Positions 1 through 11,978 of a stretch of 33,650 nucleotides of DNA are shown here, one piece after another (position 1 is the stretch's first letter; each line of letters starts with the position of its first letter). The stretch comes from an uncultured Clostridia bacterium (GTDB lineage Bacteria; Bacillota; Clostridia; Oscillospirales; Oscillospiraceae): positions 1 to 33,650 of the forward strand of contig CAMHEN010000009.1 in NCBI GenBank assembly GCA_946184165.1, given 5' to 3'. The position numbers and the translations under genes are program-made. The notes beneath the pieces are model-generated. The model made no database searches and was not told the origin of the DNA. It saw only the letters and a program-made list of their open reading frames with translations.

Positions 1-1806
1 GCACTCGTCAAGGCCCAGCTTCTTCAGGGTCTCGTCGGTCGGGAAGGCGTTGACCCAGCCGCGGACAGCGTAGTACTGCGGCAGGGTGATGTCCAGCTTG
101 TTGACCATGCCCTTGGACGGGCCGTTGGAGATAGGCTCGGTCAGCAGGCGCTTGGGCAGGCGATCGTCCTCCGGCTTCATGCCGGCAGCCTTGTTGAACA
201 TACGCTCGATGTTGAAGATACGGTCTCCGACCTCAAGCAGTTCCTCGGGCGTGTAGTTCGTACCGGTGGCGGCGTTGAGCAGGCTCGCATACTCGGGAGC
301 GCCCAGCGCGAAAGAGGTGAACAGGCAGGTGCCCATGGAGTCGATGGCGGCGGTCAAATCCTGGAAGGTCTTGGCCCAGCCGGCCTTTTCGTCGGTGACG
401 GTGCGATCGAGCTGTGCGGGAATGCCGAGGACTTCAGGCGCGATCATGTAGCCGCGCACGTGAGCAGCGCCGCAGTTGGCGGTGGCGTAGTTGATGCCGA
501 TACCCTGGATGGCGCGGGCGTCATAGGCGGGGATCTCCTGCTTCTTGACGCTCATGGAGAACTCGGGGTGGCCGTAGTGCTCGCAGAGGCGGGCGGAGCC
601 GGAGGACATGAGCCAGTCAAGCTCTGTCTTGGGGTCGCCCATGCGCTTGGTCCACTCGATCAGGGCCTCCTTGCTGCCCCACTCCAGCGGCACGCCGGCG
701 CAGTCCTCTTCCTTGATGCAGCCATTCTGGTAAAGCTCCATCGCCGCGGCGATGGTGCAGGGCACGCCGATGGCGTCCAGACCGTACTCATTGCAGAGGC
801 GGTTGCACTCGTCGATGGTGTAGAGGTCATCGTTGCCGCAGTCGCTGCCGTAGGCCCACAGCGGTTCGTACTCGGGGCCGCCGACAACCTTGTCGTCATG
901 CTTGATGATGCGGCCGCAGGCGATGGGGCAGTGGAAGCAGGCGCCGGGTTTGACCAGGTATTTCTCAGCCAGGGTCTCACCGGAGAACTGGTCGGCGGTG
1001 GGGCAGTAGCTCTCCTGCCAGTTCCTGGTGGGCAGAGCGCCTATGCCGTTGATGACGTTGACCAGAGATGCAGTTCCGAGGGCACGCAGACCCGCGCCGG
1101 TGAGGGGATTGTCGGTCATGATCTTGAGGCAGGCCTTGTTGGCTTCCTTCAGAGCGTCCACATCGGCAATCACGTCGAGCTGCTTGCGGGTGGCCTTGAC
1201 AACAATGGCCTTGAGCTTCTTGCTGCCCATGACGGCGCCGGTGCCGGAGCGGCCGGCGGCGCGATCCTTGTCGTTCATGACGGCGGCGAGCAGAACCTGC
1301 TTCTCACCGGCGGGACCGATGTTCAGGACGGAGCAGTCGCTGCCGTGCTTCTCCTTCAGCTTGTCGTCGAGCTCTTCACTCAGGACGCCCAGATACTCCC
1401 GTGCGTCGAGGATCTCGATCTTATCGTCCACGATGTTCAGGTAGCACCAGTCGGGGGCCTGGCCTTCGACGATCAGCGCGTCCCAGCCGGCGAACTTGAG
1501 CTTGGCGCCCCAGATGCCGCCGGAGTTTGCGCAGGCGATCATGCCGGTCAGGGGGGACTTTGTCACGACCATGTAACGGCCGGAGGAAGGAGAGTTGGAA
1601 CCGGTCATGGGGCCGGTGATGTAGACGAGCTTGTTTTCCGGAGACAGGGGATCGACCGTCGCCACGCCCTCATCGTAGAGGATCTTGGTGCCGAGACCGC
1701 GGCCGCCGATGAACTTCTTGGCCGTTTCGAGATCCAGCGGTTCCGCTTTGATCTCGCCGGTACTCAGGTTGATTCTGGCTATTTTTTCATAGTATGCGTC
1801 GCTCAT
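1..1806 (-). CDS. aor: Aldehyde:ferredoxin oxidoreductase family (tungsten pterin enzyme), C-terminus truncated by window edge
   Basis: Reverse-strand reading from CAT at 1804-1806 gives MSDAYYEKIARINLSTGEIKAEPLDLETAKKFIGGRGLGTKILYDE...GRSGTGAVMGSKKLKAI...GACFHCPIACGR..., AOR family motifs. Open to position 1 (602 codons). AGGAGG-type RBS just upstream. Absent from ORF track because it runs off the edge. Confidence 0.95.
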   Translation of the reverse strand, partial: MSDAYYEKIARINLSTGEIKAEPLDLETAKKFIGGRGLGTKILYDEGVATVDPLSPENKLVYITGPMTGSNSPSSGRYMVVTKSPLTGMIACANSGGIWGAKLKFAGWDALIVEGQAPDWCYLNIVDDKIEILDAREYLGVLSEELDDKLKEKHGSDCSVLNIGPAGEKQVLLAAVMNDKDRAAGRSGTGAVMGSKKLKAIVVKATRKQLDVIADVDALKEANKACLKIMTDNPLTGAGLRALGTASLVNVINGIGALPTRNWQESYCPTADQFSGETLAEKYLVKPGACFHCPIACGRIIKHDDKVVGGPEYEPLWAYGSDCGNDDLYTIDECNRLCNEYGLDAIGVPCTIAAAMELYQNGCIKEEDCAGVPLEWGSKEALIEWTKRMGDPKTELDWLMSSGSARLCEHYGHPEFSMSVKKQEIPAYDARAIQGIGINYATANCGAAHVRGYMIAPEVLGIPAQLDRTVTDEKAGWAKTFQDLTAAIDSMGTCLFTSFALGAPEYASLLNAATGTNYTPEELLEVGDRIFNIERMFNKAAGMKPEDDRLPKRLLTEPISNGPSKGMVNKLDITLPQYYAVRGWVNAFPTDETLKKLGLDEC

Positions 1807-1921: not shown

Positions 1922-1959
1922 GAATCTGCTTTTGTCCAGGGCAAAGCAAAAACAGATTC
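1922..1959. repeat. Inverted repeat GAATCTG...CAGATTC upstream of AOR
   Basis: GAATCTGCTTTTG-(12 nt)-CAAAAACAGATTC pairs over 13 positions with one G.T-type wobble. Confidence 0.6.
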
Positions 1960-1960
1960 C

Positions 1961-1995
1961 ATACGAAATAATACGAAACGATGCGAAACAGCACG
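1961..1995 (-). promoter_or_regulatory. Three phased 10-bp repeats plus CGTGCTGTTTCGCA motif, candidate operator upstream of AOR
   Basis: Plus strand ATACGAAATA|ATACGAAACG|ATGCGAAACA|GCACG. Minus strand CGTGCTGTTTCGCAT CGTTTCGTAT TATTTCGTAT. Resembles sequence upstream of tupA (9382-9421). Confidence 0.5.
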
Positions 1996-2016
1996 TGTGA
2001 AGACTCTCCCCCACCC

Positions 2017-2045
2017 TTGTTAAGCGGCTAAAAAAACGCTATAAT
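2017..2045 (+). promoter_or_regulatory. Sigma-70-type promoter for HTH-PBP/moeA operon
   Basis: TTGTTA (2017-2022), 17-bp spacer, TATAAT (2040-2045). Confidence 0.6.
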
Positions 2046-2049
2046 CACT

Positions 2050-2216
2050 TTAAGGCAACACCGCACGATCCGCCATCGGCGCCTCCCGGAAAAATCGCGC
2101 TCTGATTTTGTTTCTTTTTCTTGAAATACACAAAGTATTCCAGCGAAAGATTTCCTTCATCAGAACACTATTTTTCTCAGGACTTGCTCTCGCCGAATTA
2201 TGCGGTATTGCCTTAA
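2050..2216. mobile_element. MITE-like element (or structured leader) bounded by ~16-20 bp terminal inverted repeats
   Basis: TTAAGGCAACACCGCA at 2050-2065 versus TGCGGTATTGCCTTAA at 2201-2216 (one mismatch); no transposase ORF inside. Confidence 0.55.
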
Positions 2217-2252
2217 CAGACCGCTTTCATTGCTTTTTAAGGGAGTGATCCT

Positions 2253-3191
2253 TTGGCACAAAACAAATCTCTCTCCACCCAGGAGGTCGCCGATATCCTC
2301 CATATTAGCAAATCTACGGTTTATGAGCTGATCCGGCGCGGCGAAATCAACTCCTACAAGATCGGTCGAAAGGTTCGCTTTACGCAGGATGACGTGGACG
2401 CCTATATTGCCCGCTCCCGCCATGAGCGGAGCGTGCCGCCCGTCAAAAAGATCGAGGTGCACAGCGCGCTCTTAAACCCGTCACAGGAGGAAGGCGGGCT
2501 CGTGATCTCCGGGCAGGATGTGGTGCTTGATATTCTGGCAAATCATCTGCATCAGCGCGGCCTCCCGGCACAGCGGGTCTATCTCAACAGCTTCGAGGGC
2601 CTCCTCGCTCTGTATGAAGGGCGCGTGGACGCGGCGGCCTGTCATCTGTTTGACGCAGCGGAAAAGGACTTCAACGCCCCATTTGTAAAAAAGCTCTTGC
2701 CCGGCGTGCCCGCCGCGCTCATCAATATCTCCTACCGGGCACAGGGCTTTTACGTGGCGGCGGGTAATCCCAAGGAGATCCGCGGATGGCGCGATCTTGC
2801 ACGGCGAGACATCTCCGTTCTCAACCGACGACCCGGCTCCAGCGCCCGTGTGCTGCTGGATGAACAGCTTCACCGCATGGGGCTTGACAAGCGCATGGTC
2901 AACGGCTATGACCGCGAAATGCGCTCCCACCTGACCATGGCGGCGGCGATCGCGGACGGTGAGGCAGACCTTGCCATCGGAACGGAACGGATTGCCCGGC
3001 AGATCGAGGGTCTGGATTTCATTCCCCTGCTGCAGGAGCGCTTTGATCTGGTCGTACATCGGGAGCTTCTGGAAAGTTCTGAGGGGGAAGAGCTGTTGGA
3101 GATCATGCGCAGCGATGCCTTCCGGAAGGAGCTGCGCCACTTTTCCGGGAACGATTACCGCGATCTGGGGAAGATCGTGGCGGAGGTGTGA
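2253..3191 (+). CDS. Excisionase/MerR-type helix-turn-helix regulator fused to PBP-like (molybdate-binding-type) domain
   Basis: TTG start with GGGAG RBS; SLSTQEVADILHISKSTVYELIRRGEINSYKIGRKVRFTQDDVDAYI is an HTH-17-type domain; C-terminal ~230 aa is similar to the C-terminal domain of the 4536 MoeA fusion. Confidence 0.85.
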   Translation: MAQNKSLSTQEVADILHISKSTVYELIRRGEINSYKIGRKVRFTQDDVDAYIARSRHERSVPPVKKIEVHSALLNPSQEEGGLVISGQDVVLDILANHLHQRGLPAQRVYLNSFEGLLALYEGRVDAAACHLFDAAEKDFNAPFVKKLLPGVPAALINISYRAQGFYVAAGNPKEIRGWRDLARRDISVLNRRPGSSARVLLDEQLHRMGLDKRMVNGYDREMRSHLTMAAAIADGEADLAIGTERIARQIEGLDFIPLLQERFDLVVHRELLESSEGEELLEIMRSDAFRKELRHFSGNDYRDLGKIVAEV

Positions 3192-3194
3192 GCC

Positions 3195-4406
3195 GTGCTG
3201 GAAGTAAAAACGCCGGAGGAGGTTTTCCGGCTGATCGAAAAAGAATTCAGGCCCTTTGCCGAAAGGGAGCTTATCCCGTATGAACATGCCCTGGGCCGCG
3301 TCCTTGCGGAGGACATCACGGCGTCGGAGTATGTGCCGGACTTTGACCGTTCCACGGTGGACGGCTATGCCGTGCGCGCGTCCGACACCTTCGGCTGCTC
3401 CGACGCGATCCCGGCAATCCTGGAGCACAAGGGCGAGGTCAGAATGGGAGAGGGCACAAACCTGACGCTAAAGCACGGCGAGTGCGCCTATGTGCCCACC
3501 GGCGGCGCGATCCCCGAGGGCGCCGACTGCATGGTGATGATCGAATACACCGAGGATTACGGCGACGGCACCGTCGGCATTCTCAAGCCGGGCGCGCCCG
3601 GCTTGAATCTCATTTTTCGCGGGGACGACGTGTACCCCGGCAAGGCCGTTCTGCGGGCAGGCCAGGTACTGCGCGCCCAGGACATCGGTGCGCTTGCCGC
3701 GATCGGGAAGGCGGAGGTTCCGGTAAGGCCCCGTCTCAAGGTGGGCGTGCTCTCCACCGGAGACGAGCTGGTGCCTGCCGCCGAGACTCCCGGTCCCGGA
3801 CAGGTGCGGGATGTGAACATGCCGATGCTTACGGCGCTGCTGCGCGAATTCGGCGCGGAGCCGGTGCAGTACGGGATCATCACGGATGATGAAGCTCTGC
3901 TGCATAAAACCGTCCGTGATGCGCTGGAAAGCTGCGACGCGGTGATCCTCTCCGGCGGCAGCAGCGCGGGCGTGAAGGATGCGGCCTGCCGCATCATCGA
4001 ATCGCTCGGAAAGCTCCTGCTGCACGGCATTGCCATCAAGCCCGGCAAACCCACGATTCTGGGGCGGGCCGGGAACAAGCCGCTGATCGGACTGCCGGGC
4101 CATCCGGTCGCGGCCTATTTTGTGGCAAGGCTCTTCGTACTGCCGCTCCTTGCACGTCTGGAGGGAAGGCAGTTATCCGACCATCCCCTCCGCGCCCGGC
4201 TCAGCGAAAATATCGGCGCAAACCATGGCCGCGCGCAGGTCAGCGCCTGCCGCATCGAACAGCGGGACGGCCGCCTGACCGCTGTGCCGATCCGCTCCAA
4301 GTCCGGTCTTATTACCCAGCTCGCGGGAGCGGACGGGTATTTCATCATCAGCCGCGACTGCGAAGGTCTGCCGAAGGATGCGGCCGTGGATGTGTTTGTG
4401 AATTAA
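3195..4406 (+). CDS. moeA: Molybdopterin molybdotransferase MoeA
   Basis: GTG start 3 nt after upstream stop; SEYVPDFDRSTVDGYAVRASDTFG, GVLSTGDEL, SGGSSAG, IKPGKPTILGR, GLPGHPVAAYF motifs. Confidence 0.93.
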   Translation: MLEVKTPEEVFRLIEKEFRPFAERELIPYEHALGRVLAEDITASEYVPDFDRSTVDGYAVRASDTFGCSDAIPAILEHKGEVRMGEGTNLTLKHGECAYVPTGGAIPEGADCMVMIEYTEDYGDGTVGILKPGAPGLNLIFRGDDVYPGKAVLRAGQVLRAQDIGALAAIGKAEVPVRPRLKVGVLSTGDELVPAAETPGPGQVRDVNMPMLTALLREFGAEPVQYGIITDDEALLHKTVRDALESCDAVILSGGSSAGVKDAACRIIESLGKLLLHGIAIKPGKPTILGRAGNKPLIGLPGHPVAAYFVARLFVLPLLARLEGRQLSDHPLRARLSENIGANHGRAQVSACRIEQRDGRLTAVPIRSKSGLITQLAGADGYFIISRDCEGLPKDAAVDVFVN

Positions 4407-4414
4407 GATTATTC

Positions 4415-4516
4415 CCTCAGTCGCTTCGCAAGAGTCTTGAGCAGGCTCCTGCGTGTGACAAACAACCCCTCAGTCATGGCCGGTCGGCCATGCCAGCTCC
4501 CCTTACAGGGGAGCCT
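4415..4516. repeat. Intergenic repeat of the CCCTCAGTC...AGCTCCCCTTACAGGGGAGCC type
   Basis: CCCCTCAGTCATGGCCGGTCGGCCATGCCAGCTCCCCTTACAGGGGAGCC contains GGCCGGTCGGCC and CTCCCCTTACAGGGGAG hairpins; resembles recurrent clostridial intergenic repeats (recalled, not searched). Confidence 0.5.
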
Positions 4517-4535
4517 ATAAGGAAAGGTGATCATA

Positions 4536-6446
4536 ATGGCTTTTGAATATCTGACCAATGTCCCGCTGGATCAGGCGAAGAAAGAATATCTGAAAAAGCT
4601 GCAGGAAAACGGATTTGCCGGAAAGACGGAAACCATTCTTGTGTCTGACGCTTACGGGCGCATCACCGCGAAAGCCGTCTATGCCGGGATCAACGCCCCC
4701 CACTATGCCGCCAGTGCCATGGACGGCGTGGCCCTGCACGCGAAGGACAGTTTTGGGGCTACCGAGACCACGCCTGTGACGCTCCGGCCGGGCCAGTTTA
4801 CCGTGGTGGACACCGGCGACCCCATTCCGGAGGGCTGCGACGCGGTGATCATGGTGGAGGACATCCTGCAAAATGACGACGGCAGCATCACCATCCATGC
4901 CCCCGCTGCCCCCTGGCAGCATATCCGCCAGATCGGCGAGGATATCTGCGCCGGTGAAATGATCCTGCCCGGGTACATGGAGGTCAGCGCCGCCTCCATC
5001 GGGGCCATGATCGCGGGCGGCGTCGGAGAGCTGGAGGTCATCCGCCGCCCGCATGTCGGCATCATCCCCACGGGCGATGAGATCATTCCGCCCTGTGCCG
5101 ATCCGAAGCCCGGGGATATTCTGGAATTCAATTCCTCCATCTTCTCCGCCATGCTTCGGGAATGGAACGCGGTGCCGGTGACCTATCCCATCGTGCCGGA
5201 CCGCTATGATCTGATCCGGGATGCGCTGCAAAAGGCAGCGGCGGAATGCGACATGGTGATCCTCAACGCCGGTTCTTCCGCCGGGCGCGACGACTACTCC
5301 ACCGCCGCCGTGCGCGAGGTTGGCGAGGTTTTGTATCACGGCATCGCCATCAAGCCCGGCAAGCCCGCCATTCTGGGCGCCAGGGGCGCGGTGCCGATCC
5401 TTGGCGTGCCGGGTTATCCGGTCTCAGGCATCATCGTCATCGAAGAACTTCTGCGCCCGCTCATCGACTGCTGGTATGAGCGGGAAAACGACGCCGGCAG
5501 CCGCACCCGCGCAAAGCTCACGCGCCCGGTGGTATCGGGGCTGAAGTATCAGGAATATGTCCGTGTACGCATGGGCTATGTGGGCAATACCCTCATGGCC
5601 TCTCCTCTGCCCCGCGGCAGCGGCGTGGTTTCCTCCTTCATGAAGGCTGACGGCATCGTCGAGGTCCCCCAGGGCACCGAGGGTTATACCGCCGGCGAGG
5701 AGGTGCGTGTGCGTCTGCTCAACTCCAAAAACCGCCTGAAAAACACCCTTGTGGTCATAGGCAGCCATGATCCGCTGATGGATGAGCTCTCCGATCTCAT
5801 GCACCGGGCCGATCACCGCCTGTATCTCAGCTCCGCGCACGTGGGTTCCATGGGCGGGATCATGGCTGTCCGCCGGGGTGAGGCACATGCGGCGGGCATC
5901 CACCTGCTGGATACCGGAACCGGTGAATACAACCGCAGCTATATCAAAAAGTATTTCCCCCACGGCGGCGTCTATCTGCTGCGCTGTGTGGGACGTCAGC
6001 AGGGCCTGATGCTGCAGAAGGGCAATCCGCTCGGCATCAAATCCTTCGCTGACATCTCGCAGGAGAGAATACGTTATGTAAACCGTCAGAAGGGCTCCGG
6101 CACCCGCATCCTGATGGACTATCTCTGCGAAAAAGACAACATAGATCGTGACAGGATTTATGGCTATGAGCGTGAGGAGATGACCCACAACGCCGTCGCC
6201 GTGCAGATCGCCGGAAACTCCGCCGACGCGGGGCTCGGCATCTACTCCACGGCAAAGCTCTACGATCTGGACTTTCTCCCCATCTGCGTGGAGGAGTACG
6301 ATCTTCTGATCCCGGAATCCGCATGGGGAACAACCCTCGTCAGGCAGCTCGTGAAAACACTGAAAAGCGAGGCATTTCGCGAGCGCATCGAGGCCATGGG
6401 CGGCTATACGCTCGACCGCCCCGGCGAGATCATCGACGTTTTCTGA
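4536..6446 (+). CDS. MoeA-like molybdopterin biosynthesis protein with C-terminal PBP-like substrate-binding domain
   Basis: MAFEYLTNVPLDQAKKEYL...INAPHYAASAMDGVALHAKDSFG, IPTGDEII, NAGSSAG, IKPGKPAILG, GVPGYPVSG; then VVIGSHDPLMDELSDLM...GSGTRILMDYLC...YDLLIPE. ATG at 4536 preferred over GTG at 4527. Confidence 0.9.
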   Translation: MAFEYLTNVPLDQAKKEYLKKLQENGFAGKTETILVSDAYGRITAKAVYAGINAPHYAASAMDGVALHAKDSFGATETTPVTLRPGQFTVVDTGDPIPEGCDAVIMVEDILQNDDGSITIHAPAAPWQHIRQIGEDICAGEMILPGYMEVSAASIGAMIAGGVGELEVIRRPHVGIIPTGDEIIPPCADPKPGDILEFNSSIFSAMLREWNAVPVTYPIVPDRYDLIRDALQKAAAECDMVILNAGSSAGRDDYSTAAVREVGEVLYHGIAIKPGKPAILGARGAVPILGVPGYPVSGIIVIEELLRPLIDCWYERENDAGSRTRAKLTRPVVSGLKYQEYVRVRMGYVGNTLMASPLPRGSGVVSSFMKADGIVEVPQGTEGYTAGEEVRVRLLNSKNRLKNTLVVIGSHDPLMDELSDLMHRADHRLYLSSAHVGSMGGIMAVRRGEAHAAGIHLLDTGTGEYNRSYIKKYFPHGGVYLLRCVGRQQGLMLQKGNPLGIKSFADISQERIRYVNRQKGSGTRILMDYLCEKDNIDRDRIYGYEREEMTHNAVAVQIAGNSADAGLGIYSTAKLYDLDFLPICVEEYDLLIPESAWGTTLVRQLVKTLKSEAFRERIEAMGGYTLDRPGEIIDVF

Positions 6447-8806: not shown

Positions 8807-9019
8807 ATGAAGCTCAGCGCAAGAAATCAGTTCAAGGGCACCGTCACAGAGATTCAGGAGGGCGCGGTCAACGGGATCGTAAAGCTGGATATCGGCGGCG
8901 GGAACATCATCAGTTCCGTCATCACCATGGCCTCGATCCGTGAGCTCGGCCTGCAGGTCGGCGGCACAGCTTATGCCGTCATCAAGGCCAGCAACGTCAT
9001 GATCGGCGTGGACGAGTGA
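8807..9019 (+). CDS. Mop/TOBE-domain molybdenum-pterin/oxyanion-binding protein (molbindin)
   Basis: MKLSARNQFKGTVTEIQEGAVNGIVKLDIGGGNIISSVITMASIRELGLQVGGTAYAVIKASNVMIGVDE is a classic Mop domain; AAGGAG RBS. Confidence 0.95.
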   Translation: MKLSARNQFKGTVTEIQEGAVNGIVKLDIGGGNIISSVITMASIRELGLQVGGTAYAVIKASNVMIGVDE

Positions 9020-9381: not shown

Positions 9382-9421
9382 TTTTTCATGCTGTTTCATT
9401 CAATTTCGTGCTGTTTGGCAC
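9382..9421 (+). promoter_or_regulatory. 10-bp phased repeats TTTTTCATGC|TGTTTCATTC|AATTTCGTGC|TGTTTGGCAC upstream of tupA, candidate operator
   Basis: Two TTTC(A/G)TGCTGTTT units exactly 20 bp apart; CGTGCTGTTTGGCA (9407-9420) matches the AOR upstream motif 13/14. Confidence 0.5.
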
Positions 9422-9588: not shown

Positions 9589-10551
9589 ATGAAAAAGTTT
9601 GTATCCCTGCTGATCGTTCTGCTCATGGTCCTCTCTCTGTCGGCTGTTCCCGCCTCGGCGGACGGTCTGGTTGTCGATACCTGCATCCTCAAGGAAGCGG
9701 ACGACGCCATGATCAACAACTACAGCCTGCTGGCCGTGAATCCCGAGGCTCCCTTCGTGGATGCGGACGGCAACGCGGTCAAGGATGTGGAACTTAACAC
9801 CGTCGGCGCCGCCGCGCTTATTAACTGGCTGCTCAGCGAGGAGGGTCAGGAGCTGGCCGCCAAGTACGGCTTTGAAGAGTACGGCGAATACCTGTTCTAT
9901 CTCAAGGACGGACGCCCCGTCTCCACCGCGGAGATCCCCGCAGCCACCGAGGAAACCAGGCTGGTCCGCCTTTCCACCACCACCTCTGTCAACGACTCCG
10001 GTCTGCTGGGTTACCTGTTGCCCATCTTTGAGGAGAAGTACGGTTACGAGGTCGAGGTTTATTCCGCCGGTACCGGCAAGTCTATCGCGAACGCAAAGAT
10101 GGGCAACGCCGATCTGATCCTGGTCCACTCCAAAAAGCAGGAGGAGGCTTTCATTGCCGACGGCTTCTCTTATGTGATCGACGGCATGGAAAATGAGCGC
10201 CTGAACTGGATGTACAATTTCTTCGTGCTCTGCGGCCCGTCTGCGGACCCCGCAGGCGTGAAGGACGCCGCTGACGTCAAGGCCGCCTTCAAAGCCATTG
10301 CCGACGGCAAGTACACCTTTATCTCCCGCGGTGACGGTTCCGGTACGCACACCAAGGAGCTGAGCCTGTGGCCGGAGGATCTGGGCATCACGGCTGAGGC
10401 TGAGAGCTTCAAGGACTACACCGACTGGTACATCTCCGCCAACACCGGCATGGGTGCCTGCCTCGTCATGGCCGAGCAGATGGGCGCTTACATCCTCACC
10501 GACAAGGCGACCTTCCTGACCTTTGTCGCCAATGATGGCGTCATGGGATAA
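9589..10551 (+). CDS. tupA: TupA-like tungstate-binding protein, apparently circularly permuted
   Basis: Signal peptide MKKFVSLLIVLLMVLSLSAVPASA; then DTCILKEADDAMINNYSLLAVNPEAP...WLLSEEGQELAAKYGFEEYGEYLF (normally C-terminal); then RLSTTTSVNDSGLLGYLLPIFEEKYG...SRGDGSGTHTKELSLW...MGAYILTDKATFL. GGAGG RBS upstream of ATG 9589. Confidence 0.88.
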   Translation: MKKFVSLLIVLLMVLSLSAVPASADGLVVDTCILKEADDAMINNYSLLAVNPEAPFVDADGNAVKDVELNTVGAAALINWLLSEEGQELAAKYGFEEYGEYLFYLKDGRPVSTAEIPAATEETRLVRLSTTTSVNDSGLLGYLLPIFEEKYGYEVEVYSAGTGKSIANAKMGNADLILVHSKKQEEAFIADGFSYVIDGMENERLNWMYNFFVLCGPSADPAGVKDAADVKAAFKAIADGKYTFISRGDGSGTHTKELSLWPEDLGITAEAESFKDYTDWYISANTGMGACLVMAEQMGAYILTDKATFLTFVANDGVMG

Positions 10552-10641: not shown

Positions 10642-11328
10642 ATGGGTTCTTCTGTTCGTAAGGCGATCGAGCTGATCCTTTCGGCCGATCCTGAGCTTTT
10701 GAATATACTCTCGACCACAGCCAGGGTCTGTCTGACGAGTTCGGTCCTTGCCCTGCTCATCGGTGTGCCCGTGGGGATCCTGTTCGGAGCAGAGCGCTTC
10801 CCCGGCCGAAAGGTGCTGCTGGTGCTCAACCGCACGCTGATCGGCATGCCGCCGGTGGTCTGCGGCCTGCTGTTCTATATGCTTTTTTCGGGGGTCGGGC
10901 CTTTCCGGCATCTCCACTGGCTCTTCACGGTGAAGCTGATGATTCTGGCCCAGGTCGTCCTCATTACGCCCATTATCATCGGGGTCATGGAGACCTTTGT
11001 GGCAGATACCGCGCCCGCCCTGCGCGAGACTGCCAAGGGCCTCGGCTTCGGCCGGCTCAAAGAATACAGGCTTCTGATAAATGAATGCCTGTACTCGATT
11101 TTTTCCGCCTATCTGCTGAGCTTTGCGCGCGCGATCGCAGAAGTCGGCGCCGTGGCCATGGTCGGCGGCGCCATTGCCTGGAAAACCAATGTGATGACCA
11201 CCGCCATCATGATGTACACCAATCGCGGCAGCTTCACGCTGGGCATCGCCCTGGGACTTATTCTGCTGAGCCTCTCTCTGCTTGTGAACATTATACTCAG
11301 CGTGATGCAGGGGAGGCTGAGCCGATGA
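10642..11328 (+). CDS. tupB: Tungstate ABC transporter permease TupB
   Basis: Multi-TM; NRTLIGMPPVVCGLLFYMLFS, ALRETAKGLGF, SFARAIAEVGAVAMVGGAIAWKTNVMTTAI are TupB-like. Confidence 0.93.
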   Translation: MGSSVRKAIELILSADPELLNILSTTARVCLTSSVLALLIGVPVGILFGAERFPGRKVLLVLNRTLIGMPPVVCGLLFYMLFSGVGPFRHLHWLFTVKLMILAQVVLITPIIIGVMETFVADTAPALRETAKGLGFGRLKEYRLLINECLYSIFSAYLLSFARAIAEVGAVAMVGGAIAWKTNVMTTAIMMYTNRGSFTLGIALGLILLSLSLLVNIILSVMQGRLSR

Positions 11329-11978
11329 GGACGACGGCTTTTACCAAAACTTATAACAAACGCGTTGTGCTCTCCCTGCCGGAGCTTACGCTGCCGGAGG
11401 GAAACATCACGGCAGTCATCGGGTCAAACGGCAGTGGGAAATCCACATTTGCGAAGATCCTTGCCGGGACCGAACGCGCCGATGATAAAAGACCGATCCT
11501 GTACAATGCCTCCGTGGGCTATCTGCCGCAGAAGAGCTTCCCGTTTCGCATGAGTACGGAGAAAAACATCCTGCAGAACGGAAATGACCCTTTGCGTGCA
11601 AGGGCACTGATGAAGGAACTTGGAATCGACGCCCTTGCCGGGCAGAGCGCGAAAAAGCTCTCGGGAGGTGAGGCAGCCCGTATGGCGCTGTGTCGTATTC
11701 TGATGAAGCGTTATGACCTGCTGATTCTGGACGAGCCCGCCGCCGCCATGGATATGGAATCCACGCTTGCCGCGGAAAGACTGATCCGACAGTACTGTGC
11801 CGAGACCGGCTGCGCTGTTCTGCTCATCACGCACAGCATCGGCCAGGCGCGCAGGCTCTCCGATCAATTGCTTTTCCTTCAGGGCGGGAAACTGATCGAA
11901 CAGGGAGCAAGCGCACAGCTTTTGTCTGCACCGCAGTGCGAGGAAACAAAACGCTTTTTGGAATTCTATGGAAGGTAA
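11325..11978 (+). CDS. tupC: Tungstate ABC transporter ATP-binding protein TupC
   Basis: ATG 11325 overlaps tupB stop (ATGA); Walker A GSNGSGKST, signature LSGGEAARMALCRILM, Walker B LLILDEP. Confidence 0.93.
   Translation: MRTTAFTKTYNKRVVLSLPELTLPEGNITAVIGSNGSGKSTFAKILAGTERADDKRPILYNASVGYLPQKSFPFRMSTEKNILQNGNDPLRARALMKELGIDALAGQSAKKLSGGEAARMALCRILMKRYDLLILDEPAAAMDMESTLAAERLIRQYCAETGCAVLLITHSIGQARRLSDQLLFLQGGKLIEQGASAQLLSAPQCEETKRFLEFYGR

Follow-up and report, generated by a model that had tools for sequence, protein, structure and literature searches.

A circularly permuted TupA-like binding protein in Clostridia

The locus and the segment order of its TupA-like protein

The window (the whole stretch of DNA analyzed, 33,650 nucleotides of contig CAMHEN010000009.1 from an uncultured Clostridia bacterium) contained a TupA-like ORF at positions 9589–10551, with a GGAGG Shine–Dalgarno sequence located immediately 5′ of it. 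The features of this region were as follows:

1..1806, minus strand: partial AOR-type oxidoreductase (tungsten or molybdenum; 216 bits on NCBIfam NF007354, short of the cut-off)
1954–1998, minus strand: direct TTTC(A/G) repeats at a spacing of 10 bp, preceding the divergent AOR/regulator pair; candidate operator
2253..3191, plus strand: HTH_17 plus PBP_like regulator with TaoR-like architecture (domain matches)
3195..6446, plus strand: pair of MoeA-type genes, of which the second carries a PBP_like fusion (domain matches)
8807..9019, plus strand: Mop/Tub-type molybdate/tungstate storage protein (TIGR00638, 90 bits, cut-off 55)
9384..9420, plus strand: direct TTTC(A/G) repeats at a spacing of 10 bp, preceding tupA; candidate operator
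9589..10551, plus strand: circularly permuted TupA-like, putatively tungstate-binding protein, 320 aa (ORF; order reversed in the PDB and NCBIfam matches)
9589..9660, plus strand: signal peptide (MKKFVSLLIVLLMVLSLSAVPASA), without lipobox cysteine in the window protein (sequence)
9670..9720, plus strand: first strand of the moved segment, residues ~28–44, equivalent to the last lobe B strand of canonical TupA (alignment to 5my5 and lobe limits of PMC5517513)
9721..9900, plus strand: moved segment, residues 45–104, corresponding to the C-terminal lobe A part of canonical TupA (alignments)
9901..9957, plus strand: linker between the former C- and N-termini (LKDGRPVSTAEIPAATEET), residues 105–123, conserved across the permuted clade (alignment of relatives)
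9958..10200, plus strand: normally N-terminal part of lobe A, residues 124–204, with TTTS (130–133) and His180 (alignments)
10201..10239, plus strand: central inter-lobe strand, residues 205–217, equivalent to T77–P89 of Desulfovibrio alaskensis TupA (PDB alignment; mature-model strand 181–193)
10240..10548, plus strand: lobe B, residues 218–320, with Arg247, Thr253, and Asp305, ending at the new C-terminus (model and site alignment)
10642..11328, plus strand: TupB-like permease (NCBIfam TupB, 142 bits, below the cut-off; ABC_perm1, 180 bits, above the cut-off)
11325..11978, plus strand: TupC-like ATPase (PF00005 and position)

From N to C, the ORF product displayed the organization MKKFVSLLIVLLMVLSLSAVPASA, DGLVVDTCILKEADDAMINNYSLLAVNPE...INWLLSEEGQELAAKYGFEEYGEYLF, linker, and RLSTTTSVNDSGLL...SRGDGSGTHTKE...AYILTDKATFLTFVANDGVMG; precursor residues ~28–104 (normally the C-terminal quarter) were placed ahead of ~124–313 (normally the N-terminal three quarters). 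The ORF, its signal peptide, the segment order, and the coordinates were all as described in the original prediction. The lipobox cysteine was absent from the window protein and ~15 relatives and present in most other relatives; binding proteins without lipobox may be secreted instead of membrane-tethered in some relatives.

Significant homology to solved TupA proteins was found by phmmer against the PDB: residues 124–312 matched tungstate-binding protein 3lr1 6–178 (E 1.3e-42), residues 26–58 matched 3lr1 180–213, and the same reversed order was observed against 3muq, 5my5 (E 9.1e-33), and 3kn3, giving four solved TupA-type structures in total. Against the closest canonical-order homologue, residues 112–312 corresponded to its 28–216 (55% identity) and residues 33–105 to its 225–285 (51% identity, E 9e-15). 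Homologues with canonical order did not align collinearly unless the window protein was reordered in silico, and solely after such reordering did it display the canonical segment order, being then collinear in one stretch with the NCBIfam TupA model (5–269 to 18–252 of 266) and with 3muq (4–264 to 7–232). These reversed PDB matches, collinear after reordering, bore out the predicted TupA identity and clean permutation: the same segments were present, with their order exchanged and no leftover duplication. The native and reordered sequences scored 132.7 and 141.2 bits, respectively, on the NCBIfam TupA model NF041772, both below its cut-off of 400 bits; canonical-order Clostridia homologues, with 194–242 bits, missed it too, and this cut-off thus does not separate permuted from canonical proteins. 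Collinear profile models score permuted TupA as two pieces, and surveys of tungsten use in the gut may accordingly under-score such proteins.

The tupB-like and tupC-like genes lay 3′ of tupA, in agreement with the TupABC context originally proposed, and their identities rest on sub-equivalog scores. The tupB and tupC genes adjoined permuted tupA in most relatives, with a strict tupA–tupB–tupC order in 107. Of 126 permuted tupA genes, 52 were preceded by the TTTC(A/G) repeats, against ~1 expected in shuffles, and these repeats are a candidate operator of the HTH_17–PBP_like regulator. A riboswitch before tupA was also considered, and no useful Rfam match was found within the window.

Recurrence, distribution, and origin of the permutation

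Scanning genome contigs for homologues with the permuted order, a check suggested with the original prediction, yielded 76 loci, and 73 proteins aligned with identical order and linker. In all, ~75 relatives from independent assemblies shared the same order and junction; they spanned 57–96% identity, and the closest (96%) came from another assembly. An assembly or binning error, in which two adjacent tupA fragments had been joined in the wrong order, might be suspected because the window genome was a fragmented assembly of 67% completeness, but the exact order and linker were common to relatives (57–96% identity) from many separate assemblies and recurred in G784, a 100% complete genome of 4.3 Mb on one contig, whose permuted protein (locus L157) was 71% identical to the window protein; the probability of such an error is practically negligible. 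Since the arrangement recurred in independent assemblies, it reflects neither chance, which was ruled out, nor misassembly.

Order scoring of 193 TupA-like ORFs gave 130 permuted, 56 canonical, and 7 without a scored moved segment, the last comprising single-lobe proteins, divergent ones, and fragments. None of the 193 carried the moved segment twice, which upheld the claim that it occurs once and ruled out duplication instead of permutation.

Matches were obtained in 47 of the 101 genomes of the window's genus, and all of these were permuted, one being interrupted by a frame break. A 300-genome sample of the window's family contained permuted proteins in 34 genomes, canonical ones in 8, and odd derivatives in 4; the class sample added permuted proteins in three further families (f27, f52, and f99), and the order sample added f17. 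In the phylum sample (398 genomes), none was permuted except the window's own among the matches listed; these were ordered by E-value, so that any permuted protein would be expected at the head of the list. On these counts, the permutation is not peculiar to the window genome and occurs across Oscillospiraceae, Lachnospiraceae, and other Clostridia. The sole Actinomycetota match was a permuted TupA (L069) in a metagenome bin labelled Coriobacteriaceae; this bin may be misassigned, or the gene may have been horizontally transferred.

In trees built on reordered sequences, the permuted proteins formed one clade (SH-aLRT 100 with 102 rows; support 100/100 with 64 rows) subtended by a long stem (0.5 changes per site). 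Its sister clade, composed of G237/L169 (L081/L169), G759/L168, L174, and L175, was canonical in order (pair support 99/96) and up to 58.5% identical to the permuted proteins over the reordered core. The TupA proteins with solved structures (Geobacter, Vibrio, Desulfovibrio, and Wolinella) were all canonical, so the permuted state is derived. Several independent permutations at the same loop would be conceivable if the cut site, a surface loop, were a place where permutation is easy, but a single order change on the tree was obtained in 100% of 200 bootstrap trees and the conserved linker was common to the permuted proteins, which makes repeated origin very improbable. With all sampled permuted proteins in one clade beside a canonical sister, the trees indicate a single permutation event in an ancestral member of the Clostridia.

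The usual route to permuted proteins is tandem duplication, fusion, and trimming at both ends, and the permuted gene would likewise have originated by tandem duplication, fusion, and truncation of both ends. No fused-tandem TupA intermediate was present among the TupA-like ORFs and genome samples examined. Two unfused canonical tupA genes were found close together in G403 (L093) and in G306, and such tandem pairs are the kind of arrangement that could give rise to a permuted gene.

Lobe anatomy, predicted fold, and ligand site

In D. alaskensis TupA, lobe A comprises residues 2–76 plus 201–251, the central strand 77–89, and lobe B 91–200 (PMC5517513). Its Tyr201 corresponded to Tyr45 of the window protein in the PDB-search alignment, and the central strand at residues 205–217 corresponded to the strand at mature residues 181–193 in the predicted model. 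Lobe A was contiguous in the window protein (45–204), lobe B was split (28–44 plus 218–320), and the chain path A–B–A had become B–A–B with both inter-lobe crossings retained. The moved segment had been assigned to lobe I in the original prediction, which is right for most of it; its first strand (~28–44) belongs to lobe B by the published D. alaskensis limits, and this places the new termini in lobe B. The earlier argument that the canonical N- and C-termini share a lobe accounts for the join (in lobe A) and not for the cut. By these alignments, the old termini were joined within lobe A, and the new termini sit in lobe B, not lobe I.

An AlphaFold2 model built from permuted sequences alone had pLDDT 92 and pTM 0.84, and this confidently predicted fold displayed the two alpha/beta lobes and two crossings of a type II periplasmic binding protein. 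Foldseek and VIA-align follow the chain order and therefore aligned one segment at a time, never both together; the VIA-align matches to 3lr1, 5my5, and ModA structures covered mature residues 97–294 only, the match to 3lr1 −1 to 180 having Z 17.4 and 2.1 Å over 181 residues. Mature residues 6–220 additionally matched phosphate-binding protein 4h1x 105–289 (Z 14.2, 3.9 Å), which may reflect pseudo-symmetry of the lobes.

The site proposed for D. alaskensis TupA consists of Thr9–11, Ser12, His59, Arg118, Thr124, and Asp170, the Arg setting W/Mo selectivity (PMC5517513). All eight residues were conserved in the window protein as Thr130–132, Ser133, His180, Arg247, Thr253, and Asp305, and the site residues were invariant in 49 of 49 aligned sequences, except that Asp was present in 48 with one gap. 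A Mop/Tub-kind protein of Eubacterium limosum, Tub, stores tungstate and is the proposed recipient from TupABC (PMC11980592). The conserved site residues, together with the tupB, tupC, Mop/Tub, MoeA-type, and AOR-type genes, make a working tungstate receptor likely, one that would bind tungstate and serve in its transport. The long stem branch, the unreached NF041772 cut-off, and the nearby MoeA-type genes, which serve both metals, would suit a permuted receptor that is TupA by resemblance alone and has a changed ligand (molybdate or another oxyanion), but the site residues were fully conserved, including the selectivity-setting Arg, and an AOR-type enzyme and Mop/Tub gene lay nearby; a changed ligand is accordingly judged improbable.

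The window protein is thus, with high confidence, the binding protein of a TupABC tungstate importer, circularly permuted once in a Clostridia ancestor with its lobes and oxyanion site kept. The rewiring would have taken place as follows: the linker of ~20 residues connected the two old lobe-A termini, and a new opening was made in a lobe-B loop past the TDKATF helix, so that the new chain would run through a lobe B strand, lobe A, the central strand, and lobe B with the two lobes, crossings, and oxyanion site kept. Tungstate would be caught between the lobes by TTTS (130–133) and His180 from lobe A and by Arg247, Thr253, and Asp305 from lobe B; the lobes would close on it, and the protein would dock on a TupB homodimer. 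Because the TupB dimer is two-fold symmetric, tethering or export via lobe B instead of lobe A need not matter.

Derivatives and known systems

Three genomes of the window's family contained single-lobe, lipoprotein-like derivatives of permuted TupA:

L165, 2760–3533, plus strand: single-lobe, lipoprotein-like permuted-TupA derivative
L166, 3202–3807, minus strand: single-lobe, lipoprotein-like permuted-TupA derivative
L167, ORF 2018–3485, plus strand: single-lobe, lipoprotein-like permuted-TupA derivative

All three harbored lobe-A parts in permuted order, without lobe B and without adjoining TupBC, and each was the only TupA-like gene detected in its genome. The L165 and L167 proteins were 37% identical over 190 residues, and the two loci had neighbor genes in common, including that of a predicted membrane protein (56% identical). 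L164 (2964–4065, plus strand) encoded a full-length permuted homologue of 26–27% identity, which lacked the TTTS and SRGD motifs and had no adjoining TupBC. These sequences suggest that the rewired chain was later trimmed and reused in L164–L167. Whether the permutation was itself a stepping stone, the contiguous lobe A having opened a route by which a two-lobed importer receptor could become a protein of one lobe and new function, is a tentative idea that we consider somewhat doubtful.

ABC-importer binding proteins are a model for fold evolution through duplication and swapping, and permuted binding proteins have been made in the laboratory as biosensors. Searches of an open-access library brought up no earlier description of a naturally occurring circular permutation in TupA or any other ABC-importer binding protein, and the priority of a natural TupA permutation is not certain. 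The natural permutation described here originated once, is widespread, has a close sister clade of canonical order (≤58% identical), and has apparently left the ligand site intact; its presence in many gut Clostridia provides a natural test of how far a two-lobed binding protein tolerates rewiring.

Four known systems could be compared: (i) TupA 3lr1 of Geobacter sulfurreducens and 5my5 of D. alaskensis share full-length homology, the TTTS/His/Arg/Thr/Asp site, and TupBC neighbors with the window protein, but the latter has reversed segments and termini in lobe B instead of lobe A; (ii) halves of Thermotoga ribose-binding protein that were permuted by engineering likewise indicate that binding-protein lobes tolerate permutation, but they are laboratory single-lobe constructs of a type I protein (PMC9815098); (iii) the type I/type II domain dislocation (Fukami-Kobayashi 1999), as far as it is cited in PMC9815098, similarly involves connectivity rearranged in evolution, but as an ancient inter-lobe exchange and not a within-family permutation; and (iv) the canonical sister clade contains the closest sequences, with TTTSVNDSGLL and GMGACL signatures and with tupB/tupC following in L169 and L174, but has the canonical order, and comparison of permuted proteins with this sister would be a direct test of the effect of connectivity on lobe closure, affinity, and docking.
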